Positions 15,854 to 37,282 of a stretch of DNA of 64,000 nucleotides are shown piece by piece. A program made the position numbers and the translations under genes. Numbering within the stretch: position 1 is the stretch's first letter; each line of letters begins with the position of its first letter. Under the pieces are notes generated by a model. It saw nothing but the letters and a program-made list of their open reading frames with translations. It made no database searches and was not told the DNA's origin. The DNA is from Verrucomicrobiia bacterium (GTDB lineage Bacteria > Verrucomicrobiota > Verrucomicrobiia > Limisphaerales > JADLHS01): assembly GCA_011525685.1 (NCBI GenBank), contig WYBW01000037.1, forward strand, positions 1-64,000, in the 5' to 3' direction.

Positions 15854-15941
15854 CAGTCGCGATGCATGGAGAGTGTGAAGCGGTTTGAAACGGATGCGCC
15901 AGCTTGCACAGCAACGGGGCTCGGCAATGTATTTGGATGAT

Positions 15942-17863: not shown

Positions 17864-18594
17864 GCGAAAACCCCTTCGGTCTCGTGCTGCTGCCGCGCGA
17901 TGCGATGATAAATCGCCTCCAGCGAGTCGCCTTCGCCATGTTTGGCGCGCAGTTCTTGAATCGTGCCTGAAGCCGCCAGTCGGCCTTGCAGCAGGATTGC
18001 CACGTGCGTTGCCAGCGGCTCGACTGCGGACATGGTGTGAGTGGAAATCAGCAAGGTCGCGCCGCGCTCGTTTTCCTCGCACAGGATGGATTGCAGCGTG
18101 TCGAGCAACGCGGGATCAAGGCCGTTGAATGGCTCGTCGAGCACGAGCAATTCCGGCCGACCACAAAGCGCAATGGCCAATCCGAGTCGTTGCAACATGC
18201 CTTTGGACAACTGGCGCACCTGGCGGTTGCGCGCATGTTGCAATCCCACGCGCTCAAGCTGCTGCTCGACTTCGGCAACCGGTTGGCCTTTGAGCCGAAC
18301 GAAGAAAGTGGCGTTCTCCGCGACCGTTCGTTGCGGATACAGTGAAACGCGCTCGGCAACGTAACCAAACCGGGCGCGAGCGGCGTCAGTGAATGGCTGA
18401 CCTTGAAACAGGATGTTTCCGCTGGTGCGCCGGGTCAGCCCCAGCAGGCAGCCGAACAGCGTGGACTTGCCCGCACCGTTCGGTCCAAGCAGCGCCAAAA
18501 CGTTTCCTCGTTCGACGCGCAGGTTAACGTCCTCCAACGCGCGGGTTGTGCCGTAGAGTTTCGTCAAACGGGAGATTTCGAGATACGAGTTCAT
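17860..18594 (-). CDS. nosF: NosF-like ABC transporter ATPase
   Basis: The 244-residue protein has Walker A GPNGAGKST near residue 37, signature LSKGMLQRLGLAIAL, Walker B LLVLDEPFNGLDP and switch histidine ISTHTMS. LSKGM in the signature is typical of NosF-class ATPases. Energised by ATP, it drives the NosY permease in NosZ maturation. It overlaps NosD upstream and NosY downstream by four bases each. Confidence 0.92.
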   Translation of the reverse strand: MNSYLEISRLTKLYGTTRALEDVNLRVERGNVLALLGPNGAGKSTLFGCLLGLTRRTSGNILFQGQPFTDAARARFGYVAERVSLYPQRTVAENATFFVRLKGQPVAEVEQQLERVGLQHARNRQVRQLSKGMLQRLGLAIALCGRPELLVLDEPFNGLDPALLDTLQSILCEENERGATLLISTHTMSAVEPLATHVAILLQGRLAASGTIQELRAKHGEGDSLEAIYHRIARQQHETEGVFA

Positions 18595-19901: not shown

Positions 19902-21430
19902 AATTGCGCAACCGCAGGTCCGGTATTGCCACCCAACGCCGAGAGCACCGTGAACACGACCGAGTTGATGACCCGGGTGTGATCGAACGCGATCAGCACG
20001 GCTACCGTGATCATCACGGTCGCGCCGGTCCATTGCAGGCCGCGCGTGAGCCAGGGACGATGCACGAATTGCCAGCTCCAGTTCCCAACCGCGACCGCGA
20101 TGATCGCCATGGGAATCGCCAAAGCCAGCGAGTAAGTGCCGAGAATCAGCGCGCCCCAATACCAGGTGGAAGTGCCCACGAAGATAAGCAGCGGATAAAG
20201 AATCGCGCCGCCCATGCAGGTGAGACAACTGACGGAAAGGCCCAGCCCGGCACAGAATGAATTGGCCGCCGTGATGTTGCCCGGCTGGCGCATGCTCAAT
20301 CCGGGCGCGCGGATGATGGCGGCGCGTTTGGGTGAAACCAACCCCACCACTGCGGCGAGGCCCACGCGAAATTTCCGTCCCCATTGGCCGAGCCAGACAA
20401 AACATTGCCCGCCACGCTTCAACACGCCAACCGACTTGAGCGCGAAATAAATCAGGAACGAAGCGCCCAGCCAGTTCGCGTAACGCGTCCACGCTCCCAA
20501 ACCCGCACCGTGATTCATGTGACCGCCTTTTTCGGGGGGAGCGGCCGTGATCGCCGCGTTCATCTCGCTCGGCGGCGTTCCGCAGAACACTTCCGTAAGC
20601 GTTGCACCCGATTGGAGCTTTGCCTGCATGCCAAGCAATTGCCGGCCCATCAATGCCACCGTCGCGCCGCTGGCCATGTAGAGGATGGTGAACCCGGCAA
20701 CAAACGCGGCGAGGTTTCGCAGGATGCGTCCGCGCACTTCCAGTGGCATTCGCGCGCCCCGTTCCGCGATGGCGGCGGAACTGACGACGCCCGCAATGAT
20801 GCCGGTGTAGTAGCTGGTCAGTTCAATCGCGCACGGACTGAGAATCACCATCAACGCCCCAATCACGCTGAGCACGAGCATTAGCGTGCTGGCGATAGTG
20901 CGGGCGGCAGCGGGTTCAACAACCGGCAATTTCCACTCAAAGACGCGCTCGGAAGTTTTGCCGACACCCTCCACGATGAGGCGGAAATGCCCGCGCTTGG
21001 CATCGAAGATCGGTTTGCCGTAATTATCCAACAAAGGAAAGACGACCAGATACATATTGTGATGTTCACTCAACACGACCGGCGTGCCGAGCGACGGATA
21101 GCGGTCGCCATTGTTGTCTTCGATGAGAACTTTGTTACGTAGATCGAGATCGGCGATTGTGCCAACGTGCGTATTGATGCCAATAAGGAACGGTTGAGCA
21201 CGGCCTTCCCATTGCTGGAGGTAGGGTTCGAGCTTCACGCGCTTCACAAATTCCGGCGTGGCGTAAGTGGCATCCACGAACACATCTGACAACGACACCC
21301 GCGACGCGTCGCTCTGCCGCGCTGTGGCCGGGCTGCCGGACTGGAGCTTCGGCACGATGTAAATGCCCACCACGAACACCGCCAGCAGCAGAGTGATTCC
21401 AGAGAGAAAAAGGATTCGAGTGGCTCTCAC
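19898..21430 (-). CDS. CcdA/DsbD-like membrane protein of the nos cluster
   Basis: The 510-residue protein has an N-terminal membrane helix, an extracytoplasmic domain to about residue 180, then about eight helices. Two cysteine-containing helix motifs, VILSPCAIELTSYYTG and SVSCLTCMGGAILYPLL, resemble the CcdA/DsbD family that carries electrons across the membrane by thiol exchange. It could supply reductant for periplasmic cysteine or copper handling (SCO, CuA sites), which is inference. It is seven bases downstream of the NosB-like gene and overlaps nosD. Confidence 0.65.
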   Translation of the reverse strand: MRATRILFLSGITLLLAVFVVGIYIVPKLQSGSPATARQSDASRVSLSDVFVDATYATPEFVKRVKLEPYLQQWEGRAQPFLIGINTHVGTIADLDLRNKVLIEDNNGDRYPSLGTPVVLSEHHNMYLVVFPLLDNYGKPIFDAKRGHFRLIVEGVGKTSERVFEWKLPVVEPAAARTIASTLMLVLSVIGALMVILSPCAIELTSYYTGIIAGVVSSAAIAERGARMPLEVRGRILRNLAAFVAGFTILYMASGATVALMGRQLLGMQAKLQSGATLTEVFCGTPPSEMNAAITAAPPEKGGHMNHGAGLGAWTRYANWLGASFLIYFALKSVGVLKRGGQCFVWLGQWGRKFRVGLAAVVGLVSPKRAAIIRAPGLSMRQPGNITAANSFCAGLGLSVSCLTCMGGAILYPLLIFVGTSTWYWGALILGTYSLALAIPMAIIAVAVGNWSWQFVHRPWLTRGLQWTGATVMITVAVLIAFDHTRVINSVVFTVLSALGGNTGPAVAQL

Positions 21431-21437
21431 GATCGTG

Positions 21438-22100
21438 TCACGTCAAAGTGTTTACCGCGGAAGCGCCAAGGCGCGGAGAAGCCGAAACCAATTTTTCGCT
21501 GCGTCTCGGCGTCTCGGCGGTGAGTTTTCGTTGCCGGCTCAATCCCGCCGCTCCGAGTTGCAGTGCCAGCGCAGCACCGATCAACCACGCGCCCAAACCA
21601 AAACGCGAGCCGACTTCAAACTGGGCAATCCTGGTCGTGCCGAGAAACGGCGGGGTGAAATCCTTCACGCCGACCAATATCGTGTGCTGATCGCGGTTGT
21701 GGCCGATGTCATGCATCTGAAACATGGCCTGAACCGCGGCCACGGCGAGTGCGGTGGCCAGCAAAATGACCACGACGATCAGCGCCCGGCGGCGAATCAC
21801 CAGCGGCAAAAGGACGGCGATCGGTCCAAGAACTGCGCCTGCGAACAGCGTCGCGGGCAACCACTTGAACTGGGGAAGCGATGGCGGGATATGGACGCCA
21901 ATATAACGATCGAGCACGGTCAATTCCCCAAGGTCGCCTCGGAATGCGTTTGGATGAACCGCGATTTTGAGAGCTTCTGCATCGCGATACTGCGGGGCTT
22001 CCATCCGCATCTGCCAGAGCGGCAGTTTCAGACTGACGAGGAGCAAGGCAGCGGCAGCGACGACGAGCGAAAAGCTGGCGATCCTTCGACTGCGTGGCAT
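21438..22100 (-). CDS. NosB-like membrane protein with repeat-derived C-terminus
   Basis: From the ATG at 22100 the protein has 220 residues and about four helices. A periplasmic loop between helices 1 and 2 contains LPLWQMRMEAPQYRDAEAL and GDLGELTVLDRYIGVH, a pattern seen in the small membrane protein (NosB) next to clade II nosZ. An earlier start at 22136 would overlap nosZ. The last 24 or so codons (AETPRRSEKLVSASPRLGAS region) are encoded by a dispersed-type inverted repeat at 21454-21521 and are probably not ancestral. Function of NosB is not established beyond a link to N2O respiration. Confidence 0.7.
   Translation of the reverse strand: MPRSRRIASFSLVVAAAALLLVSLKLPLWQMRMEAPQYRDAEALKIAVHPNAFRGDLGELTVLDRYIGVHIPPSLPQFKWLPATLFAGAVLGPIAVLLPLVIRRRALIVVVILLATALAVAAVQAMFQMHDIGHNRDQHTILVGVKDFTPPFLGTTRIAQFEVGSRFGLGAWLIGAALALQLGAAGLSRQRKLTAETPRRSEKLVSASPRLGASAVNTLT
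21454..21521. repeat. Palindromic dispersed-type repeat (68 bp)
   Basis: The plus strand starts ACCGCGGAAGCGCCAAGGCG and ends CTCGGCGTCTCGGCGGT. The two ends are imperfect inverted repeats of about 24 bases, rich in the ACCGC(G/C)GA-GC/ACGCC pattern common in small mobile hairpin repeats of planctomycete/verrucomicrobial genomes. Only one copy is visible in this window. It lies inside the 3' end of the NosB-like frame, just before its stop. Confidence 0.6.
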
Positions 22101-22110
22101 AGATGGGGTG

Positions 22111-23943
22111 CTATTCAAAGGACGACTCCTTTCCACCGACGCTGCCGGCTTTTTCCGCCTTGGTAATCGGACCGACGGTTTCGTTGAGTTCCGCCCCGAC
22201 GGGTTTGACCAGCATCCGTCCGCGCATTTCCAAATGCAGCGCGGAGCAGAACCAGGTGCAGTAATACCAATACGTGCCCAGTTTATCCGCGACGAACGTC
22301 GTTTCGGTCGTCAGTCCGGGATCAACGGCGACGTTGATGCCATAGCGGGACAGCGCAAGCCCATGTGTCATGTCGCGAACGGTCTCGACATTCGTCAGGT
22401 GGAGTTTCACTTCATCTCCCTGATGCACTTCAAATTGCTCCGGCACAAACTTGGATCGGATGCAGGTCATATAGACCTCCACCTTGTTGCCGTTGCGAAC
22501 GACTTTTTCCTCGCCCAGCTTGACCGCCGTCGGCTGCTGTTCGTAGGTTTGCACCACATGGTTTTCCAGAGTCGTCCGGGGAATCATCACTGCATCATGC
22601 GGTTCAGGAAGTGACGGGAACGCCGCGACGACTCGCATCTTTTCGCCGGAGATATCGATGAGTTCCTGCGATTCCGGCATGGCCGGGCCGACCGGCAGAA
22701 ACATTCCCTTGCTGAGCTTGTTCAGCGAAATCAGCCAATCGCCGTTGGGATAGCTGGAATCAGCGCCCGCCGCCTTGGTGTGCCCGACATTGTAGTGAAC
22801 GTCCACCCGGTCCACGATGTAATCCGGTTCGCCCTTGATCGCTTTCTCGATGTTCCACTTCACAATCTGCGAATCCACAAACAGCGAGGTGTAGGCATTG
22901 CCGCGGTTGTCGAACGTCGTATGCAGCGGGCCGAGGCCGACCTCCGGTTCAGCGATTGTTCTCAGCGTGTGCGCGTCAATGATGCTGACCGTCGGAGAAA
23001 GTTTGCCGCTCGCCAAAACGTATTTGCCGTCGGGTGTGACGTTGCAGCCGTGCGGATTCTTAGGCACGGGAATGAGCGTCAGCACGCCGGGCACTTTTTC
23101 TGATTCGATCACAGGCACGCCGTTGATTTTGGTGAATTTGCCCTCCGCCACCGCCTTTTCGGCCAACGGCACGTCAATTGCGCCCACGGCGTCACGATCG
23201 CGCTCGATCATGCCTTCGGAGGACACCGCGTTCTCGGTGTTATACATCGTTGAGAACACATAACGGCCATCCTTGCCGGAGGTCGCGATGTCCGCGTTGC
23301 CCACAAAGCTGACTTCGAATTTCGTCTCCAACGTCTGCGCGTCGAGGAAAGCGATGGCCGAGCGATACTTTTCCATGTCGGTTGAATTGCCTGCGGCGTC
23401 AGTTTCGAGTTCGCCGTTGACGAAGACGTACTTGCAGGACGGCAGATACGTGGCCAGTCCGTGCGCGCCCTGAAGGTTCGGCACGAGCTTGATCTCGGCG
23501 ACTTCGAAGGTGCGCAAATCAATCTTCGCCACACGATCGTTGGCCTTGTCATTGATCCAGAGCCAGTGCCCATCGTAGCGCCCGTCGGTCTGGCTTAACA
23601 CCGGATGATGCGTGTCGCCCCAAAGCGGGCCGGTCGCGGCGAGGCGTTTGTAGGTTTCCGATCCCGGATTGTTCGCATAGCCGAGGGCCGCCCGCGGTTC
23701 AAAGATGGGAATCTCCTTGATGAACCGGCAGGACGGAATGCCGAACACGAACACACTGCCGCTCTGGCCGCCGCTCAATAGAGCGTAGTAATCGTCGAGT
23801 TTTCCTGGCGGCACATAAACCCGCTCGGCGGCTGATTTATTCTGCGCGGCTTCCTTCTCCTTTTTTGCGGTCGTATCGGAATTGCAGCCGGCAAGAAGAA
23901 TCGAGGCAAAGGATGCGAGGATTACGAAATGTGTGGTCTTCAT
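22111..23943 (-). CDS. nosZ: Nitrous-oxide reductase, clade II type
   Basis: From the ATG at 23943 the enzyme has 610 residues and reduces N2O to N2 in the periplasm. It has a Sec lipoprotein signal (SILLAGC, lipid cysteine near 20), not a Tat signal, as in clade II NosZ. The seven-bladed propeller carries CuZ ligands, including DTHH near 110-113 and further histidines (HGLA, NPHGCN, LHTTFD, HYNVGHTKA, PEPHD). The C-terminal cupredoxin has the CuA site C562-x3-C566-x3-H570-x2-M573 (CTWFCSALHLEM). The gene directly follows the diheme/CuA-like cytochrome gene (20 bp gap), its likely electron donor. An alternative GTG at 23967 would overlap that gene. Confidence 0.96.
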   Translation of the reverse strand: MKTTHFVILASFASILLAGCNSDTTAKKEKEAAQNKSAAERVYVPPGKLDDYYALLSGGQSGSVFVFGIPSCRFIKEIPIFEPRAALGYANNPGSETYKRLAATGPLWGDTHHPVLSQTDGRYDGHWLWINDKANDRVAKIDLRTFEVAEIKLVPNLQGAHGLATYLPSCKYVFVNGELETDAAGNSTDMEKYRSAIAFLDAQTLETKFEVSFVGNADIATSGKDGRYVFSTMYNTENAVSSEGMIERDRDAVGAIDVPLAEKAVAEGKFTKINGVPVIESEKVPGVLTLIPVPKNPHGCNVTPDGKYVLASGKLSPTVSIIDAHTLRTIAEPEVGLGPLHTTFDNRGNAYTSLFVDSQIVKWNIEKAIKGEPDYIVDRVDVHYNVGHTKAAGADSSYPNGDWLISLNKLSKGMFLPVGPAMPESQELIDISGEKMRVVAAFPSLPEPHDAVMIPRTTLENHVVQTYEQQPTAVKLGEEKVVRNGNKVEVYMTCIRSKFVPEQFEVHQGDEVKLHLTNVETVRDMTHGLALSRYGINVAVDPGLTTETTFVADKLGTYWYYCTWFCSALHLEMRGRMLVKPVGAELNETVGPITKAEKAGSVGGKESSFE

Positions 23944-23963
23944 GGTCTTGAAATTGGGAGGGT

Positions 23964-25214
23964 TCACTTTGCGGAAGCAGATTGTTTGGCGGTATCATCC
24001 TCTACGATGAATGTGCCGTTCATGAGCGGATGAAGTTTTTCAGTCGAGCATTGCGTTGCGCAGTAAAAGGTGAATTGGCCGGCGCGATCCGCGCGAAACT
24101 TCACAGTCTTGGGCGCGCCAACCATCGCGCCATTCAGGAAGGCAACTTCATCATAGCTGCTGATGGCGAATCCATGCCCGACGCCCAAGCCGTTGTCGGT
24201 CGGCTCGAACGTCACTTCGACGATCTGGCCTTTCTTCACGCGGATGACTGCGGGGTCGTATTTCCAGGCGCGTTCAATCAGGTTGACACGCACATCGGGG
24301 TCGCCCAGCTTTTCGCGCTCGAGAAAATTCTGCGACGCGCGAACGATGGCCGCCGGTGGAGCGGCCTTGACGAAAGTTTCAACGTAGTAAGCGAGCTTCC
24401 ACGCGTCCTGGTCCTGAATCGTGCCGTGAAATCCAAGCATCGGTGTGCCGTTGAATCCCGTCTGGATGGTGCGAACAATCTCCTTGGTGGAATACCCGGA
24501 CTTGAAGAGTCCCGGTTTGGAAAAGTCACGCGGCTTGATACGAATGTTGCTATCGTCAACCAAGCCCGCTGCTGAAGTCCCGTCGCCGTGACCGGACTCG
24601 CCGTGGCAGGTGATGCAAGCCATTTTCGTGAAGAGCGCCTTCCCCTCGGCGAGTGTCGTTTCGTTGCGCGCTGGTGGAGTGCCCAAACTCACCGCGCTCC
24701 GGTCTTCGTTGCTGTCTGCAAAACGCGGCGAGAACGTCTTAATGTAATCGACCACCGCCCAACGATCCTTGTCGCTGAGATGGATTCTCCACGGCGGCAT
24801 CGGCGTCCCCGCCATGCCTATGGAAACGGAGCGGAACAAATCCGCGTCCGTCGGAAGATGGCCGATCGGAGTTGAGCGCAGGCGATAGTTTGCTTGAACG
24901 AAGTTTCGTGGTTTCGGGAGCAGGAACGCGGCGGCATCGCCTTTTCCGTCTCCCTTCGCACCGTGGCACGCCAGGCAATTTTGTTCGTAAACGGTTTTGC
25001 CGTGCGCGACCAACTGAGCGGTCGCTTCCGGTTCCGGCGGCACGGGCAGGTCCAAGAAGGTGATCTTGGAAGCCGGGGCAACCGAGGCGGAGTTCGCCGT
25101 TTGAATTCGGTTCGGCGGCGCTGGCGCCTCCGTCGAGGGTTTGCAACCGGCGGCTAGCAAACCCAACCCCACCACAATCGAAATGGATCCAATAGTTTCT
25201 GTCGTTACACGCAT
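23964..25214 (-). CDS. Diheme cytochrome c fused to a CuA-like cupredoxin domain
   Basis: The 416-residue lipoprotein (LAAGC, cysteine 24) has two c-type haem sites: C80-LA-C83-H84 and C200-IT-C203-H204. A C-terminal cupredoxin domain (about 300-405) ends with FYCATQCSTEKLHPLM: C385-x3-C389-x5-H395-x2-M398. This is a CuA-like loop with two extra residues before the histidine relative to cytochrome oxidase subunit II or NosZ. It is immediately upstream of nosZ and probably passes electrons from the quinone/cytochrome pool to NosZ; whether the copper site is binuclear cannot be judged from sequence. Confidence 0.85.
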   Translation of the reverse strand: MRVTTETIGSISIVVGLGLLAAGCKPSTEAPAPPNRIQTANSASVAPASKITFLDLPVPPEPEATAQLVAHGKTVYEQNCLACHGAKGDGKGDAAAFLLPKPRNFVQANYRLRSTPIGHLPTDADLFRSVSIGMAGTPMPPWRIHLSDKDRWAVVDYIKTFSPRFADSNEDRSAVSLGTPPARNETTLAEGKALFTKMACITCHGESGHGDGTSAAGLVDDSNIRIKPRDFSKPGLFKSGYSTKEIVRTIQTGFNGTPMLGFHGTIQDQDAWKLAYYVETFVKAAPPAAIVRASQNFLEREKLGDPDVRVNLIERAWKYDPAVIRVKKGQIVEVTFEPTDNGLGVGHGFAISSYDEVAFLNGAMVGAPKTVKFRADRAGQFTFYCATQCSTEKLHPLMNGTFIVEDDTAKQSASAK

Positions 25215-25218
25215 AAAA

Positions 25219-26064
25219 TTATGAGGCCCGGCCCAACACCGCGGTTCGAGGTTTGACGGCGATGAAGGCGACGGCGGCGAGATGGTGGCGGTGCTTGCGG
25301 AACAAACGACGCATGGAAAGAACGCGACTCCGCGCCGCCGGCCTTCGCGCGACGTTGAGCATAAACTTCAGTGCGCGGAGGAAGCCTTCGTCCCGAAACA
25401 GCCGGCGCGGTTCGAGAAGATGCATCGGCGCGGTGGCTTGGGATTGAATTTTGAAGCCCGCATTTTCGAGCACCTCCCGCCATTCACGCGCCGTCAAGGG
25501 CTGCGCGCCGACGTGGATGTTGCGGGACATTTCCCGGCTGACGTCCGCTTGAACCGCCTCCGGCAGATCATCGGGCGTGAGGGCCAATTCATGAATGCCG
25601 TAGCGTCCGCCGGGTTTGAGCAGGCGAAAGGCTTCGCCCACGATGCGGCACTTTTGTTCGGACCCTTGCATGGTCAGCATCGCTTCGCCGTACACCACGG
25701 TGGCGGAGGCGTCGGGCAACCCGGTCTGCTCCGCGCCGGCAACGCGACAATTCTGCCGGTGACCCTTCAGGTATTTTCGGACTTCGGCAGCGGCAGTTTC
25801 CTCCCGTTCGATGGCCGTGTAGGAGTCGGGGCGCCGGGCCAGCGTCAGGCGCGCGGTCACGCCCAAGCCCGGCGCAAATTCAACCACCGAATCGTTCGAT
25901 TGAATGTTCAGCCTGTCGAGCATGACGCGGGTGAGTTCGACTCCGCCGGGGCGCAGGACGCGTTTGCCCAAACTGGCGAGCAGCCAGTGCCCAGGCATCT
26001 TGTGAGTCTGGTCCGCGGAGGGCCCCTGAGTTTCGGAGAGGTGAGTGCAGACGGTGGAGTTCAT
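25219..26064 (-). CDS. SAM-dependent methyltransferase in the nos operon
   Basis: Starting at the ATG at 26064 (26094 is an alternative), the protein has 281 residues. A SAM motif VVEFAPGLGVTARL lies near residue 60, with an acidic strand end (YTAIERE) and GGRYGIHELAL further on. The long arginine/histidine-rich C-terminus (SRVLSMRRLFRKHRHHLAAVAF) is unusual. Methyltransferases of this kind occur in several clade II nos clusters, but the substrate is unknown. It lies four bases upstream of the cytochrome gene. Confidence 0.75.
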   Translation of the reverse strand: MNSTVCTHLSETQGPSADQTHKMPGHWLLASLGKRVLRPGGVELTRVMLDRLNIQSNDSVVEFAPGLGVTARLTLARRPDSYTAIEREETAAAEVRKYLKGHRQNCRVAGAEQTGLPDASATVVYGEAMLTMQGSEQKCRIVGEAFRLLKPGGRYGIHELALTPDDLPEAVQADVSREMSRNIHVGAQPLTAREWREVLENAGFKIQSQATAPMHLLEPRRLFRDEGFLRALKFMLNVARRPAARSRVLSMRRLFRKHRHHLAAVAFIAVKPRTAVLGRAS

Positions 26065-26090
26065 AATGAGACAGTTTTTGGTTAAAAACA

Positions 26091-26438
26091 TCAATGCGGA
26101 ATGCCGATGCCATGGGCGTGCGCAAGATAACGGGCGATTCCGTCCGTTCCTTCAACGAACCAACGACGCTTTGCCTGCTGAAGCAGAGCGGCTGAAGGCA
26201 CACCGGTCGGCGCACTGTTCAACACGAGCACGGGACAGCTTTGGTTTTCCTCGCCGAGCAGTTCAATCAGTTCGGGACGCGGGCGCGGGAAATCGAGCCA
26301 GCGCACCTCCACGTGCCGTTTGAGCGCCGGATAAAATTCCAGCAGCCCGACCATTTGCGCGCAGCCGGGACAGAAATACGGTCCCTGGCCCGCATCCATG
26401 AAATGCGGTTTCAGGAGGTAGAGTCGGTCGGGTTTCAT
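26091..26438 (-). CDS. DUF3088-like thioredoxin-fold protein
   Basis: From the ATG at 26438 the protein has 115 residues: KPDRLYLLKPHFMD, a CxxC motif in YFCPGCAQM, the FPRPRPELIELLGEENQSCPVLVL core and a FVEGTDGIARYLAHAHG end. This matches DUF3088, which looks thioredoxin/glutaredoxin-like; no function is established. Its position between the NsrR-like regulator and nos genes suggests a thiol-redox role under denitrifying conditions. A degraded second copy of its 3' end lies at 15.75-15.85 kb. Confidence 0.75.
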   Translation of the reverse strand: MKPDRLYLLKPHFMDAGQGPYFCPGCAQMVGLLEFYPALKRHVEVRWLDFPRPRPELIELLGEENQSCPVLVLNSAPTGVPSAALLQQAKRRWFVEGTDGIARYLAHAHGIGIPH

Positions 26439-26465
26439 AGCGATGGGTGCGAGACGGTTTATCAT

Positions 26466-26897
26466 TCAGAGTTTAAGCACTGCGCGCATCTTTGAGGGTT
26501 GTTTCACCAAGTCGGCAAGAGTGTATCCGTCCAGCACCGCGAAGAATGCCGCTGCCGCCTCAGCCAACACGCCTTTCAAGCGGCAGCATGGGAGCAGCCG
26601 GCAGATGCGATTGCTCCGGTCCCTGCAATCAATCACCGTCTCGGATTCCTCCCCGAGGCGGACGATGTCGCCCAGGCGAACCTCCTCGGGCGGACGAGCG
26701 AGCGTGAATCCGCCGCCAATCCCGCGGCGCGTTTCAAGATAGCCGCTGCGACCGAGATCATGGACCACCTTGACCAGATGGTGGCGGGAAATGCCGAACG
26801 TCTCGGCAACTTCATCCACCGTGACTCGCTCGGGCACGCGCAGGGCCGCCTGCATCAGCACGCGGAACGCGTAATCGGAATAAGCGCTCAGTCGCAT
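26466..26897 (-). CDS. nsrR: Rrf2-family NsrR-like nitric-oxide sensor (copy 1)
   Basis: From the ATG at 26897 (MRLSAYSDYAFRVL) the protein has 143 residues, the NsrR/IscR size. The winged helix-turn-helix is at 28-70 (DEVAETFGISRHHLVKVVHDL). Three cysteines that would bind an iron-sulfur cluster are in VIDCRDRSNRICRLLPCCRLKG, spaced like NsrR, and the end (FFAVLDGYTLADLVKQP) strongly resembles E. coli NsrR. It heads the nos operon and reads away from pdhA, with an 11-1-11 palindrome between them. A second paralogue (about 80% identical by eye) lies at 47.2-47.7 kb. Confidence 0.87.
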   Translation of the reverse strand: MRLSAYSDYAFRVLMQAALRVPERVTVDEVAETFGISRHHLVKVVHDLGRSGYLETRRGIGGGFTLARPPEEVRLGDIVRLGEESETVIDCRDRSNRICRLLPCCRLKGVLAEAAAAFFAVLDGYTLADLVKQPSKMRAVLKL

Positions 26898-26938
26898 CGC
26901 AACCAAGATGCAGTAGCGTCGGCAAGGACACAAGGTTA

Positions 26939-26961
26939 AAAATGTATTTGAAATACAGCTT
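26939..26961. promoter_or_regulatory. NsrR-type 11-1-11 operator between nsrR/nos and pdhA
   Basis: Read on the minus strand the arms are AAGCTGTATTT and AAATACATTTT around one C; nine of eleven positions pair, and the core TGTATTT-G-AAATACA (26943-26957) is perfect. It resembles the published NsrR consensus AAGATGYATTT-N-AAATRCATCTT. On the plus strand TTGAAA (26948-26953) could be a -35 hexamer with TACCAT (26971-26976) as -10, spacing 17, for pdhA. It also lies 42 bp upstream of the nsrR start, so it could control both directions. Confidence 0.75.
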
Positions 26962-27001
26962 TAGCTCACCTACCATTGAATACGTTGTTTGATGCACTCT
27001 T

Positions 27002-28078
27002 ATGGAAACGACCTTAGAGACGATTCCTTCCGCTGCTGCGGAAATAAATCACGCCTTGGAGGCGCAGGAAAAGACTCAGTTTCTGCGCCAGATGCTGCGT
27101 ATTCGGCGATTCGAGCAGGCGGCGCTCAAGCAATATCAGACCAGCGGCCAGATTGGCGGCTTCTTGCATCTTTGCATCGGTCAGGAATCCGTCGCCGTCG
27201 GCACGATGTCGCTCTGCGGTGACGACGACCATATCATCACCGGCTATCGTAATCACGGACATGCCCTGGCGGCAGGCATGAGCATGAACGAATGCATGGC
27301 GGAATTGTTCGGCAAGGCCACGGGTTGTTCCAAAGGGAAAGGTGGTTCGATGCACTTTTTCGCCCCGGACAAGAATTTCTGGGGCGGGCACGGCATTGTG
27401 GCAGGGCAGACCCCGCTCGGCCTCGGCCTGGCCTTCGCGTTGAAATACAAAGGCATCAAGGGCTGCTGCCTTTGCTACCTCGGCGACGGCGCGGTCAATC
27501 AAGGCGTTTACCAAGCGTCGCTCAATCTAGCCTCACTCTGGAGTCTGCCGGTGATTTACGTCATCGAAAACAACCAATATTCGATGGGCACGAGCCAGGA
27601 ACGTTCCTCCGCCTATCGGGATTGCCTGGCAGCAAGGGCCGAGGCTTACGACATCGAGTGGGATCGGTTTAACGGCGAGGACATTTACGAAGTGCGCGCC
27701 AAAACTTTGCCGGCGATTCTGCGCGCCCGCGAGGAATCACGGCCGACGGTTCTCGAAATCGCCACCTACCGTTACTATGGTCACTCGGTCTCCGACGCCA
27801 ATGCCAAGAAATACCGCAGTCCGGAGGAAATTGAAAAATACCGCAAGCTGCACGACCCGATTCAGCTTTGGCAAAGGCGATTGTTGGACGAAGGCGTTTT
27901 GACCGCGGAGCAGGCCGAGGAGTTGGACGCGGCGGCAACGGCCGAGGCCGCCGAGTCGGTGCGCTTTGCCCAAGAGAGTCCGTTGCCGGAAAAGGCCGAC
28001 ATTTTCGCGGATGTTTACTGCGAAGTGGACCGGCAGACCGCAGCCGGCCGAACCGGAAAATTCTTCTTTAACGATTAA
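27002..28078 (+). CDS. pdhA: Pyruvate dehydrogenase E1 component, alpha subunit
   Basis: The 358-residue protein is the thiamine-diphosphate-binding E1 alpha chain of the alpha2beta2 type. The ThDP motif runs from GDGAVNQGVYQASLNLASLW to ENNQYSMGT (about residues 163-197), and the phosphorylation-loop-like region (YGHSVSDANAKKYRS) follows near 260. GYRNHGHALAAG near 81 is typical of pyruvate-specific E1 alpha. It is the first of four PDH genes and starts 41 bp after the NsrR-type operator. Confidence 0.92.
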   Translation: METTLETIPSAAAEINHALEAQEKTQFLRQMLRIRRFEQAALKQYQTSGQIGGFLHLCIGQESVAVGTMSLCGDDDHIITGYRNHGHALAAGMSMNECMAELFGKATGCSKGKGGSMHFFAPDKNFWGGHGIVAGQTPLGLGLAFALKYKGIKGCCLCYLGDGAVNQGVYQASLNLASLWSLPVIYVIENNQYSMGTSQERSSAYRDCLAARAEAYDIEWDRFNGEDIYEVRAKTLPAILRAREESRPTVLEIATYRYYGHSVSDANAKKYRSPEEIEKYRKLHDPIQLWQRRLLDEGVLTAEQAEELDAAATAEAAESVRFAQESPLPEKADIFADVYCEVDRQTAAGRTGKFFFND

Positions 28079-28090
28079 CCGCGAATTTCC

Positions 28091-29065
28091 ATGCCTGTCA
28101 TCACTTATCGCAAAGCCTTGAACGACGCGCTGGCGGAGGAACTGGCGCGCGATGAAAACGTTTTCATCATCGGCGAGGAGGTCGCGCAATACAACGGCGC
28201 TTACAAGGTGACCGAAGGCTTGTGGCAGCGGTTTGGCGATAAGCGCGTGCTGGACACACCAATCACCGAAGCGGCGTTCATCGGCCTGAGTGTCGGCGCT
28301 TCGATGCTGGGGCTGCGGCCGGTCGTTGAACTGATGTTTTGGAGCTTTGCCTACGTGGCTTACGACCAGATCGTCAACAATGCCGGCTGCATCCGCTACA
28401 TGTCCGGCGGCCAGATCAATCTGCCACTGGTCATTCGCGGCCCGGCTAACGGCGGCACCAACGTCGGCGCCACGCACTCGCACACGCCAGAAAGCATCCT
28501 GGCGAACAACCCTGGCGTGAAGGTCGTTTGCCCCGCCACGGCCTACGACGCGAAGGGATTGATGAAAACCGCCATCCGCGACAACGACCCGGTATTTGTA
28601 ATGGAAAACACCCTGCTCTACGGCGAGACGTGGGAAGTGCCGGAGGAGGAATACTTGATTCCGCTAGGCGTCGCCGACGTGAAACGCGAGGGTTCCGACA
28701 TTTCGCTCGTAGCCCACGGACGCGCGGTCATCACGAGCTTGCAGGCCGCGGACATTCTGGCGCACGAACACAACATCCGCGCCGAGGTCGTGGATTTGCG
28801 CTCCATCCGCCCGCTCGATGAAGAAACTCTCCTTCGCTCCGTGCGAAAAACCCACCGCGCCGTGCTGGTGGACGAGAACAAACCCTTTTGCGCCGTGAGC
28901 GCCCAAATCGCCACGACGATCCAGGAAAAAGCGTTCGACGATCTGGATGCGCCGGTCCTGCGCGTTTGCACGCTGGACGCGCCGGCGATTTACAGTCCGC
29001 CGCTCGAAAAAATTCAACTGCCCACGCCGGAGCGCATCGTGGGAAAAGTTTTAAGCATTGCCTGA
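28091..29065 (+). CDS. pdhB: Pyruvate dehydrogenase E1 component, beta subunit
   Basis: The 324-residue protein matches E1 beta chains over its full length: ITYRKALNDALAEELARDENV at the start, GEEVAQYNGAYKVTEGL near 31, DTPITEAAFIGLSVGASMLGLRPVVE near 58, and the C-terminal transketolase domain (LRSIRPLDEETLLRSVRKTHRAVLVDE). It pairs with the alpha subunit encoded 12 bp upstream to decarboxylate pyruvate and acetylate the lipoyl group of E2. Confidence 0.94.
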   Translation: MPVITYRKALNDALAEELARDENVFIIGEEVAQYNGAYKVTEGLWQRFGDKRVLDTPITEAAFIGLSVGASMLGLRPVVELMFWSFAYVAYDQIVNNAGCIRYMSGGQINLPLVIRGPANGGTNVGATHSHTPESILANNPGVKVVCPATAYDAKGLMKTAIRDNDPVFVMENTLLYGETWEVPEEEYLIPLGVADVKREGSDISLVAHGRAVITSLQAADILAHEHNIRAEVVDLRSIRPLDEETLLRSVRKTHRAVLVDENKPFCAVSAQIATTIQEKAFDDLDAPVLRVCTLDAPAIYSPPLEKIQLPTPERIVGKVLSIA

Positions 29066-29072
29066 TGCCGTT

Positions 29073-30311
29073 ATGCCCTACATTGAAATGCCCAAACTGA
29101 GCGACACGATGACCGAAGGCACCGTGGTCAAGTGGCGCAAGGCCGTTGGCGAGCCGGTCGGCATTGGCGACGTCATTGCTGAAATCGAAACGGACAAGGC
29201 AGTGATGGAACTCGAAGCCTTCGACGGCGGAACGCTCCAGGAAATCTATGTCAGTGAAGGCGGCAAGGCACCGATCGGCGAAAAACTGGCGTTGCTGCTG
29301 GCGGCTGGGGAAGACGCGCCACAAAAGGACCATCGGGCTGCCAAAACTCAACAGGTCAATCCGCTGGCCGTGAGTCCGAGCCGGAGATCTCCGGCTCCAG
29401 CCAAAGCGGAGAAAGCAACCGCACCCGTTTCACGTGGCCGCGTGAAAGCCTCGCCGTTGGCGAAGAAAATTGCCGGCGCAAAAAGCGTGGACCTGGCTTT
29501 GATTCAAGGTTCCGGCCCAGGTGGACGCATCGTTGCCCGCGACGTAGAGTCGGCTCCCGTTACGCCGGCGGCGATCCCAACAGCGGCGGCAACAATTCCC
29601 GTCTTGCCGCCTGGCCTAGGCGACCGGCGCATACCGCTTACTGGAATGCGCAAAATCATTGCCGAGCGGTTGCTCGCCAGCAAAACGCAAATTCCGCATT
29701 TCTACCTTAACATTGAAGTGGACGCGGGTGAACTTGTCCGGCTGCGGGCCCATTTGAACGAGCACTTGGAAAAGTCCGGCCAGGGCAAACTGACGTTCAA
29801 TGATTTCATTTTGAAAGCCGTGGTCGCTGCCGTCACGAAAGTGCCGCGCGTCAATGCGTCCTTCGCGGGCGACGCCGTTATCGAATACAGCGACATTCAC
29901 CTTTCAGTGGCGGTGGCCGTCGAGGATGGTTTGGTGACGCCGGTCATCCGGCAAGCGCAGAAGAAATCACTGCGCGAAATCAGCGAAGCGGTGAAAGACC
30001 TGGCCACGCGCGCCCGCAGCAAGAAACTCAAGCCGGAGGAATATCAGGGTGGCACGCTCACCGTGTCGAATCTGGGCAGCTACGGCATTGATGGCTTTTC
30101 GGCGGTCATCAATCCGCCGCAGGCCGTCATCCTCTCGATTGGCGCCATCGTGAAAAAGCCGGTGCTCAACGCACAGGACCAGATCGTTCCGGGCCATCGC
30201 CTCGCCATCGGTTTGAGCGCAGATCATCGTGTGGTGGATGGCGCCATCGGCGCGCAATATCTCGCGGAACTGCGCGGGCTACTGGAGAATCCAGCCGCGT
30301 TGTTGCTCTAA
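29073..30311 (+). CDS. pdhC: Dihydrolipoamide acetyltransferase (PDH E2)
   Basis: I use the ATG at 29073 (412 residues); a TTG at 29058 is an upstream alternative overlapping pdhB. One lipoyl domain has the modified lysine K42 in IETDKAVMELEAF. A proline/alanine linker leads to the E3/E1-binding domain (KASPLAKKIAGAKSVDLALI). The catalytic domain ends with the acetyltransferase motif SADHRVVDG. Single-lipoyl E2 proteins are common outside enterobacteria. It forms the core of the PDH complex with the flanking gene products. Confidence 0.92.
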   Translation: MPYIEMPKLSDTMTEGTVVKWRKAVGEPVGIGDVIAEIETDKAVMELEAFDGGTLQEIYVSEGGKAPIGEKLALLLAAGEDAPQKDHRAAKTQQVNPLAVSPSRRSPAPAKAEKATAPVSRGRVKASPLAKKIAGAKSVDLALIQGSGPGGRIVARDVESAPVTPAAIPTAAATIPVLPPGLGDRRIPLTGMRKIIAERLLASKTQIPHFYLNIEVDAGELVRLRAHLNEHLEKSGQGKLTFNDFILKAVVAAVTKVPRVNASFAGDAVIEYSDIHLSVAVAVEDGLVTPVIRQAQKKSLREISEAVKDLATRARSKKLKPEEYQGGTLTVSNLGSYGIDGFSAVINPPQAVILSIGAIVKKPVLNAQDQIVPGHRLAIGLSADHRVVDGAIGAQYLAELRGLLENPAALLL

Positions 30312-30321
30312 TTGAATTTTT

Positions 30322-31698
30322 ATGAACTATGATCTGATTGTCATTGGCGGCGGTCCCGCCGGCTATGTTGGCGCCATTCGCGCCGCGCAACTGGGCAAAC
30401 GCGTCGCCTGTGTCGAAAAAGAGCGGGCCGGCGGCACCTGCCTTAACTGGGGCTGCATCCCCACCAAATCGCTGTTGCGCAACGCCGAACTGTTTCACCT
30501 GATGAAGCATCGTGGCGGCGAGTTCGGTTTCAGCTTTGAGAACCTGCGGTTCGACTGGAGCAAAATCATCAAACGTTCACGGGACATCGCCGACAAAAAC
30601 GCCGCCGGCATCGAGTATTTGTTCAAGAAGAACAAGGTGGAGTATGTTCGCGGTGAAGCGTCGCTCACCGAAGCGGGTGCGGTGACGGTAAACAGCGCCG
30701 ATGGGAAAACTCGGGAACTCGAAGCCGCGAAAATCCTGATAGCCACCGGCGTCGTGTCGCGGCCGTTGTCCGGTTTTCCGTTCAACGGGCGAACCGTGAT
30801 TGGCAGCCGCGAAGCGATGGTTTTGGAAAAGCAACCCAAAGACATCATCATCATCGGGGCCGGTGCGATTGGTGTTGAGTTCGCCTACTTCTTCAACGCC
30901 TTCGGGACGAAGGTCACGCTGCTAGAGATGATGCCGAACATTCTGCCGCTCGAAGACACCGAAGTTTCGCAAACACTGGAAAAGGCCTTCGCCAAACAGG
31001 GCATCAACGTTCTAGCCGGAACCAAAGTGGTCAAAGCCGAAGCCGATGCCAGCGGTGTTAGAATCTCGGTCGAAGGCAAAAAATCAGAATCACTGGAAGC
31101 CGAAGTTTGTCTCGTGGCGATTGGCGTGCAACCGTTGCTGCCTGCTGGCCTATCACTTCAACTCACCCCGCGCAATTTCATCCAGACGACGGATCGTTAC
31201 CAGACGAGTGTGGCGGGCGTCTTCGCCGCCGGCGACATCATCGGGCCGCCGTTGCTGGCGCACACCGCGAGCTACGAAGCGATTCAAGCAGTCGAGGGAA
31301 TGTTCACCGATCACGTCCCAAAAAGAATCAATGCCTTTCCAAGTTGCACCTATTGCCAGCCGCAAGTGGCGAGCGTCGGCTTGACCGAGCGCGCGGCGCG
31401 GGAACAGGGACTGAAACTCCGGATCGGTAAATTCCCCTTCAGCGCCAGCGGCAAGGCCCGCGCCGCGGGCGAAGTGGACGGCTTCGTCAAACTGCTTTTC
31501 GGCGAGCCTTACGGCGAACTGCTCGGCGCGCACATCATCGGCGCGGAAGCGACGGAGATGATCGCCGAACTGGGTTTGGCGCTCACACTCGAAGCAACTC
31601 ATGAGGACATCGAGGCCAGCATTCATGCCCATCCGACTCTCAGCGAAGCCGTGCACGAAGCGACCGGCCAGGCCTTCGGGACCGCGATTCATCTTTGA
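30322..31698 (+). CDS. lpdA: Dihydrolipoamide dehydrogenase (E3)
   Basis: The 458-residue flavoprotein has the FAD site LIVIGGGPAGYVGAIRAAQLG, the redox disulfide GGTCLNWGCIPTKSLL (cysteines near 40 and 45), the NAD site IIIGAGAIGVEFAYFF, and the C-terminal active-site HAHPTLSEAV. It reoxidises the lipoyl groups of PDH and probably also of the 2-oxoglutarate dehydrogenase encoded at 40.8-44.8 kb, which has no E3 gene beside it. Confidence 0.95.
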   Translation: MNYDLIVIGGGPAGYVGAIRAAQLGKRVACVEKERAGGTCLNWGCIPTKSLLRNAELFHLMKHRGGEFGFSFENLRFDWSKIIKRSRDIADKNAAGIEYLFKKNKVEYVRGEASLTEAGAVTVNSADGKTRELEAAKILIATGVVSRPLSGFPFNGRTVIGSREAMVLEKQPKDIIIIGAGAIGVEFAYFFNAFGTKVTLLEMMPNILPLEDTEVSQTLEKAFAKQGINVLAGTKVVKAEADASGVRISVEGKKSESLEAEVCLVAIGVQPLLPAGLSLQLTPRNFIQTTDRYQTSVAGVFAAGDIIGPPLLAHTASYEAIQAVEGMFTDHVPKRINAFPSCTYCQPQVASVGLTERAAREQGLKLRIGKFPFSASGKARAAGEVDGFVKLLFGEPYGELLGAHIIGAEATEMIAELGLALTLEATHEDIEASIHAHPTLSEAVHEATGQAFGTAIHL

Positions 31699-31940
31699 GA
31701 ATTGAGGAAGGACAGCGCTTGAGCCAAAACGATCAGGCAAATGCGACGCAGCCGCCGAATGCGGACATCCGGTGTGATGTCTGCGGACAATTCGGCGCCG
31801 TTCGCGTCGGCGACCGCGCGCTCTGTCAGGATTGTTACACCGGCAGCGGCTCCTGCTGTCCGGAGTTCGGCAAAGACGATTTGTGGACTTTCCCGGAAGA
31901 ACAGTCGAGGGAATCGAACCGATCCTCCAATCCCCAATGA
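31695..31940 (+). CDS. Small cysteine-rich (zinc-ribbon-like) protein
   Basis: Up to 81 residues if the TTG at 31695, overlapping the lpdA stop, is used; a TTG near 31719 would give a shorter form. The core has two CxxC-like knuckles, IRCDVCGQFG and ALCQDCYTGSGSCCPEFG, as in small zinc ribbons. The ends are polar and low in structure. It lies between lpdA and a ferredoxin gene in the same direction, and function is unknown. No ATG start is available, which lowers confidence. Confidence 0.5.
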   Translation: MRIEEGQRLSQNDQANATQPPNADIRCDVCGQFGAVRVGDRALCQDCYTGSGSCCPEFGKDDLWTFPEEQSRESNRSSNPQ

Positions 31941-31967: not shown

Positions 31968-32315
31968 ATGGCCGACAAGAATAGCCGATTGCCACAGAAT
32001 GCATCGGGACCTTGGTATGTGGATTCCAATTGCATTGATTGCGATTTGTGCCGCGAAACCGCGCCCAGCGTCTTTCGGCGCGACGAAGACAATGGCAACA
32101 GCATCGTGTTTCACCAGCCGGAAACCGAGGAAGAGCGGGCGCTCGCCGAGGAGGCCAGAAATGGATGTCCGGTGGAAGCGATTGGAAACGATGGGGCGCC
32201 GGCCACGGGCAGGCCAGACGAGACGAGCGCGCCGGCATCCGCGGCGACCGCCGAGTCTGCGCAGCCGGCGGGCATGGCGCCGTCGGCTAACACCGCTGGC
32301 GACTCGCACCAGTAA
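31968..32315 (+). CDS. Single-cluster ferredoxin with low-complexity tail
   Basis: The 115-residue protein has an N-terminal ferredoxin domain: CIDCDLC (cysteines at about 22, 25 and 28) plus a fourth cysteine in EARNGCPVEAI near 67, enough for one [4Fe-4S] (or [3Fe-4S]) cluster. After residue 75 there is a 40-residue tail of alanine, proline, serine and threonine without structure. It sits between the PDH genes and nirK and may carry electrons in this run; partner not known. Confidence 0.8.
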   Translation: MADKNSRLPQNASGPWYVDSNCIDCDLCRETAPSVFRRDEDNGNSIVFHQPETEEERALAEEARNGCPVEAIGNDGAPATGRPDETSAPASAATAESAQPAGMAPSANTAGDSHQ

Positions 32316-32353
32316 CAGACAGCTCTTGAACTTTTCGTGAACAAGTCGAAGCT

Positions 32354-33361
32354 ATGAAAATGAAACCATTCCCCCTTGCGCTGGCCGGGAGCATTGCCCT
32401 GGCACACTGCCCAGTTGCCGCGCTGCCTCATGTACAAGCCACATTGACGTATGCGCCCGAGGTCCCGCCGCCCATCACGCGACAGGAACCAGCCATCGTG
32501 GAAGTCAATTTGACCTCCACGCACAAGGTGATCCCGCTGACGTCTTTCGAGGATTACACGTTCTGGACCTTCAATGATCACGTGCCGGGGCCTTTCATCC
32601 GCGCGCGGGTTGGTGACTGGCTTCAGGTGCGGATTTCGAACACCGATCCGAGCGGCATGCCGCATAACGTGGATTTCCACGCCGTGATCGGTCCGGGCGG
32701 TGGCGCGGACGTGTTGACGGTGACGCCGGGCACGACGAACGTGGCCTGGTTTCATCTCCGACACGCGGGTTTGTTCGCCTATCACTGCGCCGTGCCACCC
32801 ATGATTGATCATGTCGCCAACGGCATGTTTGGGCTCATCATGGTGGATCCGACGAACGGATTGCCGCGCGCCGACCAGGAGTTTTATGTCGTGCAATGTG
32901 AATTTTACACCACGAACAATCCCAACGGTGGGCGGCTGCTTGGCTTTTCGCACGAGCGCGCCATGGCGGAGCAACCGACTTACGTGGTGTTTAACGGCGA
33001 GTCCGGCTCCATGATCTTCAAGGATGCGTTGTCAGCCCGAGCCGCCGGGCGCATTCGCATTTACTTTGGCAACGCCGGGCCGAACCTGATCTCGTCCTTC
33101 CATATCATTGGAACGGTCATGGACGATGTTTATCATGCGGGCAGCCTGGCCAACCCGGCGGCTCACGGCTTGCAAACGGTAACCGTGCCGCCCGGTTCGT
33201 CCGCGATCATTGACTTCACGCCCATCGTGCCCGGCATTTACACCTTTCTGGATCACGACATGGCCCACTCTGAAAAAGGCGCGATGGGTCAGATCAAAGT
33301 CACCGGCGCGCCGCGACCGGACATTTACCGATCGGCACAGGATGGCCCGCCGGAGAACTGA
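32354..33361 (+). CDS. nirK: Copper nitrite reductase (NO-forming)
   Basis: The 335-residue protein has a signal peptide (cleavage near ALPHVQA) and two cupredoxin domains. Type 1 copper ligands: H104, C145, H153 and M158 (MPHNVDFHA; AYHCAVPPMIDHVANGM). Type 2 copper ligands: H109, H144 and H301. The catalytic aspartate (D107) and histidine (H250 in SSFHIIGT) are present, so it should reduce nitrite to NO in the periplasm. It is shorter than many NirK proteins, with no haem or extra cupredoxin extension. It follows the PDH-ferredoxin genes in the same direction. Confidence 0.92.
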   Translation: MKMKPFPLALAGSIALAHCPVAALPHVQATLTYAPEVPPPITRQEPAIVEVNLTSTHKVIPLTSFEDYTFWTFNDHVPGPFIRARVGDWLQVRISNTDPSGMPHNVDFHAVIGPGGGADVLTVTPGTTNVAWFHLRHAGLFAYHCAVPPMIDHVANGMFGLIMVDPTNGLPRADQEFYVVQCEFYTTNNPNGGRLLGFSHERAMAEQPTYVVFNGESGSMIFKDALSARAAGRIRIYFGNAGPNLISSFHIIGTVMDDVYHAGSLANPAAHGLQTVTVPPGSSAIIDFTPIVPGIYTFLDHDMAHSEKGAMGQIKVTGAPRPDIYRSAQDGPPEN

Positions 33362-33407
33362 ATCGGCGGCGGCCAACCAGTCTTCCCAGACGACGGACGC
33401 TCGAAAC

Positions 33408-34715
33408 ATGCCAGTTCAGGCCGAAAACGTGAAGCGCGTGCTGGTGCTGGGCGCGGGCTTCGGAGGCCTGACCTTTTGCCAGGCTTTCAACTGCCCGCGC
33501 GCCCACGTCACATTGCTGGATCGGCAGAACCACCACTTGTTTCAACCGTTGTTGTATCAAGTGGCCACCGCCGGTTTGTCGGCGCCAGAGATTGCGCAAC
33601 CGATTCGCTCGATAGTCAGTCGAAGAAAGAATGTCAGTGTGCTGCTGGAGAACGTCGCGGGCGTGGACCTCGCGCGTCGGCAAGTGCGGCTCGATCACAC
33701 TGTGTTGACCTACGATAATCTGGTGCTGGCCCTCGGCGGCGTGACCAGTTACTTCGGCCATCCGGAGTGGGAGCAGCATGCGCCGGGACTTAAAACGCTG
33801 GACGATGCCCTGCGGATTCGCCGGCAAATCCTGCTCGCGTTCGAACGGGCGGAAACCACTGCCGACGCCGCCCAACAGGCACGCTTGATGACCATCATTG
33901 TGGTGGGCGGCGGAGCGACCGGAGTTGAACTCGCCGGTGCGTTTGCCGAACTGGCCCGCCGGGTGTTAAAGCGCGATTTTCGTCGCATTGACCCTCGGCA
34001 GGCGCGTGTGATTTTGTTGGAGGCGGGTCCGCAGATATTGCCTCAATTCTCACCGCGTCTGGCAGCGAAAGCAGTGGCGCATTTGAACTCACTAGGCGTG
34101 GAGGTTCGCACCCGCACCCGCGTCGGGGCAATCGATGATGGCTTCCTGCTGCTGACCAACGGGGAGCGGATTGAAAGCGCCAATATGATTTGGGCGGCAG
34201 GGGTCGCGGCTCATCCGTTGGCCCAAACGCTAAACGCTGAATTGGACCGTGTGGGGCGTGTGATCGTCGAACCCGACCTCAGCGTGCCCGGTCATCCGGA
34301 AGTTTTTGTCATTGGCGATATGGCGCTGGTTCGGGACGAGAATGGCCAGTCTGTGCCTGGAGTGTCGCCGGCGGCGATGCAAATGGGCCGGCACGTCGCT
34401 CGCATCATCACGAGCGAATGTCGGACCGGGCCGGCGAGTCCGCCGGCGCGCCCGGTATTTCGGTATTGGAACAAGGGCTTGATGGCGACGATTGGCCGGT
34501 CGGCTGCCGTCGCGCAAATCGGGCGTTTGGAATTCTCCGGATGGCCGGCCTGGGCCGCGTGGCTGCTCATACACTTGGTTTTCCTCATCGGTTTTCGTAA
34601 CCGGGCGGCCGTGCTGCTGCAATGGACCTACTCATATTTCACCTACAAACGAGGCGCTCGTATTATCACGGGCTTGGAGGGTTCGCGGGAGCTTCTGACC
34701 TCGAATCATCTGTAA
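33408..34715 (+). CDS. ndh: Type II NADH:quinone oxidoreductase
   Basis: From the ATG at 33408 the protein has 435 residues. FAD site: VLVLGAGFGGLTFCQAF near 12; NAD site: IIVVGGGATGVELAGAFAEL near 162; FAD-contact segment FVIGDMALVRDENG near 304. The C-terminal amphipathic/hydrophobic region (AWAAWLLIHLVFLIGF) and YKRGARIITG ending are typical of membrane-attached NDH-2. It passes NADH electrons to quinone without pumping protons. Position downstream of PDH and nirK suggests it feeds quinol to denitrification enzymes. Confidence 0.92.
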   Translation: MPVQAENVKRVLVLGAGFGGLTFCQAFNCPRAHVTLLDRQNHHLFQPLLYQVATAGLSAPEIAQPIRSIVSRRKNVSVLLENVAGVDLARRQVRLDHTVLTYDNLVLALGGVTSYFGHPEWEQHAPGLKTLDDALRIRRQILLAFERAETTADAAQQARLMTIIVVGGGATGVELAGAFAELARRVLKRDFRRIDPRQARVILLEAGPQILPQFSPRLAAKAVAHLNSLGVEVRTRTRVGAIDDGFLLLTNGERIESANMIWAAGVAAHPLAQTLNAELDRVGRVIVEPDLSVPGHPEVFVIGDMALVRDENGQSVPGVSPAAMQMGRHVARIITSECRTGPASPPARPVFRYWNKGLMATIGRSAAVAQIGRLEFSGWPAWAAWLLIHLVFLIGFRNRAAVLLQWTYSYFTYKRGARIITGLEGSRELLTSNHL

Positions 34716-35017
34716 TCCGCGAACCAGCCTGTGCTGGCCGCCGAAATCGCTGCGAGATGAGACTCTTTCAAGAATCCTGGCGAATGGGAGGCTCTGGCTG
34801 ACAAGGGCAACCAGAGCGCCTGTGAATCTCCTTTGCGCGCGATTTCCTCGCCCAAAGCCCAAGCCATGATGCTGGTGCAATATGCGGATTGGGTGAAGTA
34901 GCTTGGTGAGACAGTGTTCTTTCGCGACCATTTGCTATCGTATGGTGTGGTTCACGTGCTTGGAAGTTGACAATTCTTCGCGTTGCCCGGCGGGAGTTCT
35001 TCCGGCAGGTTGGCGGG
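34716..35017. other. Intergenic region upstream of ilvD
   Basis: About 300 bases with no supported gene. A TTGACA hexamer at 34967-34972 has no convincing -10 at the right distance. A small inverted repeat (CCAGC/GCTGG near 34724-34737) follows the ndh stop but lacks a T-run. The ilvD promoter presumably lies here. Confidence 0.4.
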
Positions 35018-37218: not shown

Positions 37219-37282
37219 TGTACCCCGTTTTTTAGACCACTGGTGTAGGTGGATTTTTTGGTGTCTGCTCCTGGCTTGCTCG

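Follow-up and report, generated by a model that had tools for sequence, protein, structure and literature searches.

The stretch of DNA analysed here, 64,000 nucleotides from a Verrucomicrobiota bacterium and called the window below, carries at positions 26939–26961 a 23-mer, AAAATGTATTTGAAATACAGCTT (box 1, with no strand assigned), in the gap between two divergent gene runs. This is the arrangement that the initial annotation had described, with an nsrR-headed nos run on the minus strand and pdhA on the plus strand. The regulator gene nsrR1 (26466–26897, minus) encodes an Rrf2-type protein. Behind it on the same strand (14628–26465) stand genes for a DUF3088 protein, a methyltransferase and a cytochrome c/cupredoxin protein, then nosZ, nosD, an ABC transporter ATPase and permease, a SCO/CusF protein and a 375-aa membrane protein. 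From nsrR1 through the DUF3088, methyltransferase and cytochrome c/cupredoxin genes to nosZ, neighbouring genes touch or overlap, and with this run unbroken, transcription of nos would begin in the same divergent promoter region as that of nsrR1. The protein encoded at 23964–25214, beside NosZ, matches cytochrome c towards its N terminus and resembles the cupredoxin end of NosZ in a C-terminal stretch; this unusual fusion is possibly the electron donor of NosZ.

On the plus strand, pdhA, pdhB, pdhC and lpd (27002–31698) encode a pyruvate dehydrogenase complex and are separated by gaps of -8 to 12 nt. They are followed by a 73-codon cysteine-rich open reading frame with a TTG start (31719–31940), which returned no match in a Pfam search and is also present in a related genome, G080. 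A ferredoxin gene (31968–32315), nirK (32354–33361) and the gene ndh2 for an NDH-2-type dehydrogenase (ATG at 33408) complete the series, these three occupying 31968–34715. The eight genes from pdhA to ndh2 form one run with gaps of at most 46 nt, they keep the same order in G080, and no terminator-like site was found between lpd and nirK. A second copy of ilvD, for dihydroxy-acid dehydratase, lies behind ndh2 (34967–36754, plus) after a gap of its own of about 250 nt, and its membership of the run is uncertain. The idea that the ilvD of this island belongs to a separate, NO-specific clade was rejected, as sequence identities show none. Further on, judging from the translations only, a transposase-like gene pair (37283–38502) sits within an apparently interrupted glycosyltransferase gene (36799–37248 and 38504–39019).

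The sequence and coordinates first given for box 1 proved exact. Its description as a near-perfect 11-1-11 palindrome was slightly generous: the central G and the 11-nt arms are there, and the arms agree at 9 of 11 positions. Since 11-1-11 repeats with an arm agreement of at least 9/11 occur at 15 places in the window, symmetry proves nothing and was rejected as evidence for an operator; the unusual part is the sequence itself. Box 1 fits the inverted repeat gATGyAT-N5-ATrCATc, the published NsrR motif of 11-1-11 form (PMC1274295). With at most three mismatches, AANATGNATTTNAAATNCATNTT has 2 matches in the window as against 0.01 in dinucleotide shuffles. At the same tolerance, the strict pattern finds only three sites in the whole 6.73-Mb genome, all inside the window, and the reversed pattern, used as a control over the whole genome, finds none. 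A broader pattern applied order-wide at two mismatches was too noisy for defining a regulon and was abandoned.

A weight matrix was trained on 20 sites that neighbour nsrR or ytfE in genomes other than this one; no site came from the window or from a pdh operon. These sites had been picked by similarity to the pattern, so that the matrix is not blind to it and its independent part is the adjacency to nsrR or ytfE. Boxes 1, 2 and 3 score 36.3, 30.6 and 30.5 bits, the next best place in the window 9.6 bits, and the maximum over 100 random 64-kb sequences was 16.1 bits.

The other two boxes give box 1 its context. Box 2, AAGATGTATTTGCCATACAGCTT (47715–47737, no strand assigned), was found by both pattern and matrix between a second regulator gene, nsrR2 (47241–47672, minus; 83% identical to nsrR1), and a hemerythrin/YtfE run. 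It stands 35 and 42 nt from the two flanking starts, a geometry like that of box 1. Behind nsrR2 on the minus strand lies a gene for a quinol-type NO reductase with a NorB c-like domain and a COX1 domain (44923–47241). On the plus strand follow genes for a hemerythrin protein, a RIC/YtfE-family protein for Fe-S repair (240 bits against a cut-off of 205), a second YtfE-like protein and an AhpD-core protein (47773–50277). An NsrR-type box thus stands before other NO-response genes of this genome, those for NO reductase and YtfE, and with nsrR beside them the surroundings of box 2 are a classical NsrR setting.

The genes sucA and sucB, for the E1 and E2 components of 2-oxoglutarate dehydrogenase (40755–44815, minus), lie 107 nt behind the NO reductase gene on the same strand and may be co-transcribed with it. 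No other sucA-type E1 was found in this genome, and in another one, G212, sucA shares a contig with nsrR and pdhA. Box 3, AATCTGTATTGGCAATACAGCTT (60596–60618, no strand assigned), was likewise found by pattern and matrix, 28 nt before a run of genes for a glutamine amidotransferase, a DUF488 protein and a Cys/Met lyase. In two other genomes (G001 and G010) the DUF488 and Cys/Met lyase genes lie behind ytfE, beside an nsrR box, and in G080 the Cys/Met lyase gene and nsrR are opposed with a box between them. From these neighbourhoods, the Cys/Met lyase looks like a recurrent NsrR target.

The regulator itself was compared with characterised proteins. The Rrf2 domain spans the whole NsrR1 protein (PF02082, 118.5 bits, cut-off 30), and the closest solved structure is that of Streptomyces coelicolor NsrR (ScNsrR; E 1.3e-19). 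In alignments with ScNsrR and Escherichia coli NsrR, Asp8, Arg12 and the three cluster-holding cysteines of ScNsrR (PMC5411485) are all kept in NsrR1. The cysteines are spaced C-x7-C-x5-C, with a longer first loop than the C-x4-C-x5-C of the E. coli protein. NsrR1 scores 111.6 bits on the NCBIfam NsrR model, whose curated cut-off is 182; the proven ScNsrR (residues 1–135) reaches 91.5 and also falls below that value, which shows that the cut-off picks out no more than the enteric type. On the RirA model NsrR1 scores 107.4 bits, about 4 below the NsrR model, and because the two are nearly equal we call NsrR1 NsrR-type on protein, motif and neighbours jointly. With the matrix scores, boxes 2 and 3, the NO genes at box 2 and these features of the regulator, the prediction that the 23-mer at 26939–26961 is an NsrR-type operator is well supported. 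The initial annotation had recognised this operator while leaving unused the two nsrR paralogs and the three boxes of the window.

Box 1 lies 41 nt from the ATG of nsrR1 (26897) and 40 nt from that of pdhA (27002), too short a distance for a pdhA promoter to fit in without touching the box. A candidate -35 element inside the box, with a -10 element 17 nt away, had been proposed for pdhA and was found: TTGAAA (26948–26953) and TACCAT (26971–26976), 17 nt apart on the plus strand, are the sole promoter-like match in 26850–27050 and represent a consensus match only, at 9 of 12 positions (26948–26976). With the box 40–41 nt from each start codon and overlapping the only promoter-like match of pdhA, bound NsrR would block both promoters.

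Lack of conservation in relatives carrying the same gene pair had been named as a refuting outcome; this check was run, and in G080 and G039 it came out in favour of the pdh link. Counted at an identity of at least 75%, pdhA orthologs occur in 10 of 320 genomes of the order. Two of the nine besides the present one, G080 and G039, which belong to two other families, carry the identical 23-mer before pdhA, 40–41 nt from its ATG, so that the spacing is constant over three genomes. The flanks are 75% (G080) and 56% (G039) identical to those here, and at these rates all 23 positions would agree by chance with probabilities of 1e-3 and 2e-6, respectively. The genes on the other side of the box have fared differently in the two relatives. 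In G039 the nsrR beside the box is a pseudogene, with about the first 45 and the last 21 codons recognisable in different frames and more than 200 nt missing from the middle; 8 kb off there is another nsrR, intact and with a box of its own. The decayed gene (L041:9976-10400) has the intact box on one side and on the other a DUF3088 gene that is also intact. In G080 the nsrR beside the box is intact and the DUF3088 gene decayed. Thus pdhA is the only intact gene adjoining the box in all three genomes; a counter-point is that the intact DUF3088 gene in G039 and the intact nsrR in G080 could maintain the box.

The remaining seven of the ten pdhA orthologs have no box at pdhA. Four of these boxless pdh operons (G006, G208, G212 and G223) nevertheless have an nsrR or ytfE gene with a box no more than about 15 kb away, and this NsrR is carried by 8 of the 10 pdhA genomes compared with 44 of the 320 overall (p 2.6e-6, uncorrected for kinship). 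In a FastTree tree of PdhA-B-C-Lpd the boxed operons are not one clade; either the box is ancestral and was lost at least twice, or it was moved by recombination. A scan of 80 more named Verrucomicrobiota pdhA loci, in part from the same genomes, found none with the box upstream of pdhA, which confines the pdh link to a few Limisphaerales. In G131 and G030 a half-site, AAGATGTATTT, lies about 180 nt ahead of pdhA; it was set aside, as it scores 13.6 bits (G131), under the range of the training sites. In G223, a box at 3704–3726 (L097:1947-3726) lies between ilvD (minus) and ytfE (plus), an arrangement that suggests NsrR control of dihydroxy-acid dehydratase in that genome.

Comparative genomics, with the box kept before pdhA in G080 and G039, supports the proposed control of pdh by NsrR. 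The wider proposal, that one sensor governs both nos and pdh, stands unevenly: of the two sides, pdh/nirK is the one conserved together with the box, and the association with nos is seen in this genome alone. The nos genes of G080 (nosZ 87% identical) lie on another contig, where no box was found around them in the 20 kb read, and the G039 contig ends at nosZ; control of nos from box 1 is suggested by gene order in this one genome. On the strength of sequence comparison, we consider it likely that box 1 is an NsrR operator for two divergent units, with repression relieved by NO.

The switch might work as follows. NsrR1, NsrR2 or both, with an intact Fe-S cluster, would bind box 1 and repress both divergent promoters. 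NO arising from nitrite respiration would destroy the cluster, and NsrR would leave the box. On the plus side, pyruvate dehydrogenase, Lpd, ferredoxin, NirK and NDH-2 would then be made, provided that the operon is read through; the minus side would yield NsrR1 and the Nos proteins. Besides pyruvate dehydrogenase, the genome has genes for a PFOR-like protein (1237-codon frame) and two more POR-type proteins; the PFOR/POR family consists of Fe-S enzymes. Since NO harms Fe-S enzymes such as this pyruvate:ferredoxin oxidoreductase, the benefit could be that pyruvate dehydrogenase and NDH-2 offer a cluster-free route from pyruvate through NADH to quinone, feeding NirK, NO reductase and NosZ under NO. 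The sensitivity to NO of both PDH-type and Fe-S enzymes is published, the pyruvate dehydrogenase complex being sensitive through Lpd (PMC6221366). The sensitivity borne by Lpd and the presence of a 4Fe-4S-type ferredoxin in the operon weaken the reading as a cluster-free route.

The same regulation could instead serve to re-supply enzymes inactivated by reactive nitrogen, namely pyruvate dehydrogenase, 2-oxoglutarate dehydrogenase and IlvD. Exactly these three, the last as dihydroxy-acid dehydratase, are named as targets in the literature (PMC6221366), and the island has sucAB behind the NO reductase gene and a second ilvD behind ndh2, to which the box before ilvD in G223 may be added. However, the island ilvD copies form no distinct clade by identity, sucA was seen close to nsrR in just this genome and, at a distance of up to 15 kb, in G212, and both sucA and ilvD lack a box of their own in this genome; as an account of the benefit we find it rather doubtful. 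More unlikely is a defensive use, in which Lpd and the E2 of pyruvate dehydrogenase would feed an AhpD-type protein for peroxynitrite or peroxide reduction, by analogy with the Lpd-DlaT-AhpD-AhpC system of Mycobacterium tuberculosis, whose electron chain from NADH has been reviewed (PMC12028322). An AhpD-core protein is indeed encoded in the YtfE run behind box 2 (49819–50277), and in G039 an AhpD-core gene lies directly behind lpd (L041:15258-15719), but the match covers just the AhpD core domain and not the full AhpD model, and the presence of nirK and ndh2 in the operon speaks for respiration. All three readings of the benefit, the cluster-free route, enzyme re-supply and AhpD defence, are our inference. 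Tentatively, and with somewhat less doubt than for re-supply by itself, NsrR in some Limisphaerales may command NO removal together with metabolic enzymes that replace or bypass those damaged by NO, carbon oxidation being switched to an NO-compatible route during denitrification. Such a remodelling would involve the PDH-NirK-NDH-2 operon directly and 2-oxoglutarate dehydrogenase by its place behind NO reductase, and possibly also IlvD and the Cys/Met lyase.

Two further alternatives concern the regulation itself. Box 1 might serve autoregulation of nsrR1 and nos only, pdhA being a bystander with an NO-independent promoter. A box adjoins most nsrR genes of the order regardless of pdh, and seven pdhA orthologs do without one, as this alternative would have it; yet in G039 the box is unchanged next to an nsrR pseudogene, the constant 40–41 nt to the pdhA ATG in three genomes leave no space for a box-free promoter, and the only promoter-like match has its -35 within the box, all of which make it improbable. 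That the regulator is another cluster-bearing Rrf2 protein with RirA-like iron sensing, the operon answering to iron or cluster status, agrees with the close RirA and NsrR model scores (107.4 and 111.6) and with a cysteine spacing unlike that of E. coli NsrR, but it is very improbable given neighbours that are NO genes (NO reductase, YtfE, NirK and NosZ), a motif that fits the published NsrR gATGyAT-N5-ATrCATc (PMC1274295), ScNsrR as the top match among solved structures and the lower score (91.5) of this proven NsrR on the same model.

With box 1 read as an NsrR operator, NO probably controls how carbon enters respiration in this organism. The established role of NsrR is that of a guard turning on NO removal and a part of the denitrification genes. 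In this genome the switch appears to govern how pyruvate carbon is fed into respiration, with nitrite reductase encoded in the same operon; if so, electron supply would be tied to the presence of NO. The locus would be a concrete, testable case of NO steering central metabolism, in an environmental group that also has N2O reductase. We know of no NsrR-controlled pdh operon, and the open-access literature, to which the search extended, held no earlier report linking NsrR with pyruvate dehydrogenase, Verrucomicrobia or central metabolism.

Among known systems, the enterobacterial PdhR, mentioned in PMC10572922 and PMC3223726, controls pdhR-aceEF-lpd with pyruvate as its signal. Like the present case as predicted, that system has a dedicated repressor for a pdh operon with lpd among its genes; there the signal is pyruvate and the regulator unrelated, whereas here the sensor is predicted to respond to NO. 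ScNsrR (PMC5411485, PMC9338935) has in common with NsrR1 the residues Asp8, Arg12 and three cysteines and a 23-bp operator, but differs in its recognition helix, in the shorter loop between the cysteines and in having three targets only (hmpA1, hmpA2 and nsrR). The NsrR regulons of beta- and gamma-proteobacteria (PMC1274295; CFT073 ChIP-seq, PMC5320621) are built on the same Rrf2 NO sensor and the same 11-1-11 operator sequence, with boxes at ytfE/dnrN, norB, nirK and, in few species, nos (PMC1274295). The word "pyruvate" is absent from the text of Rodionov et al. 2005 (PMC1274295), and "aceE" from that of the E. coli CFT073 ChIP-seq study (PMC5320621). By contrast with these regulons, the box here is placed before a pdhABC-lpd operon with nirK and ndh2 among its further genes, and comparative genomics supports this operon as a predicted new kind of target for a known regulator.
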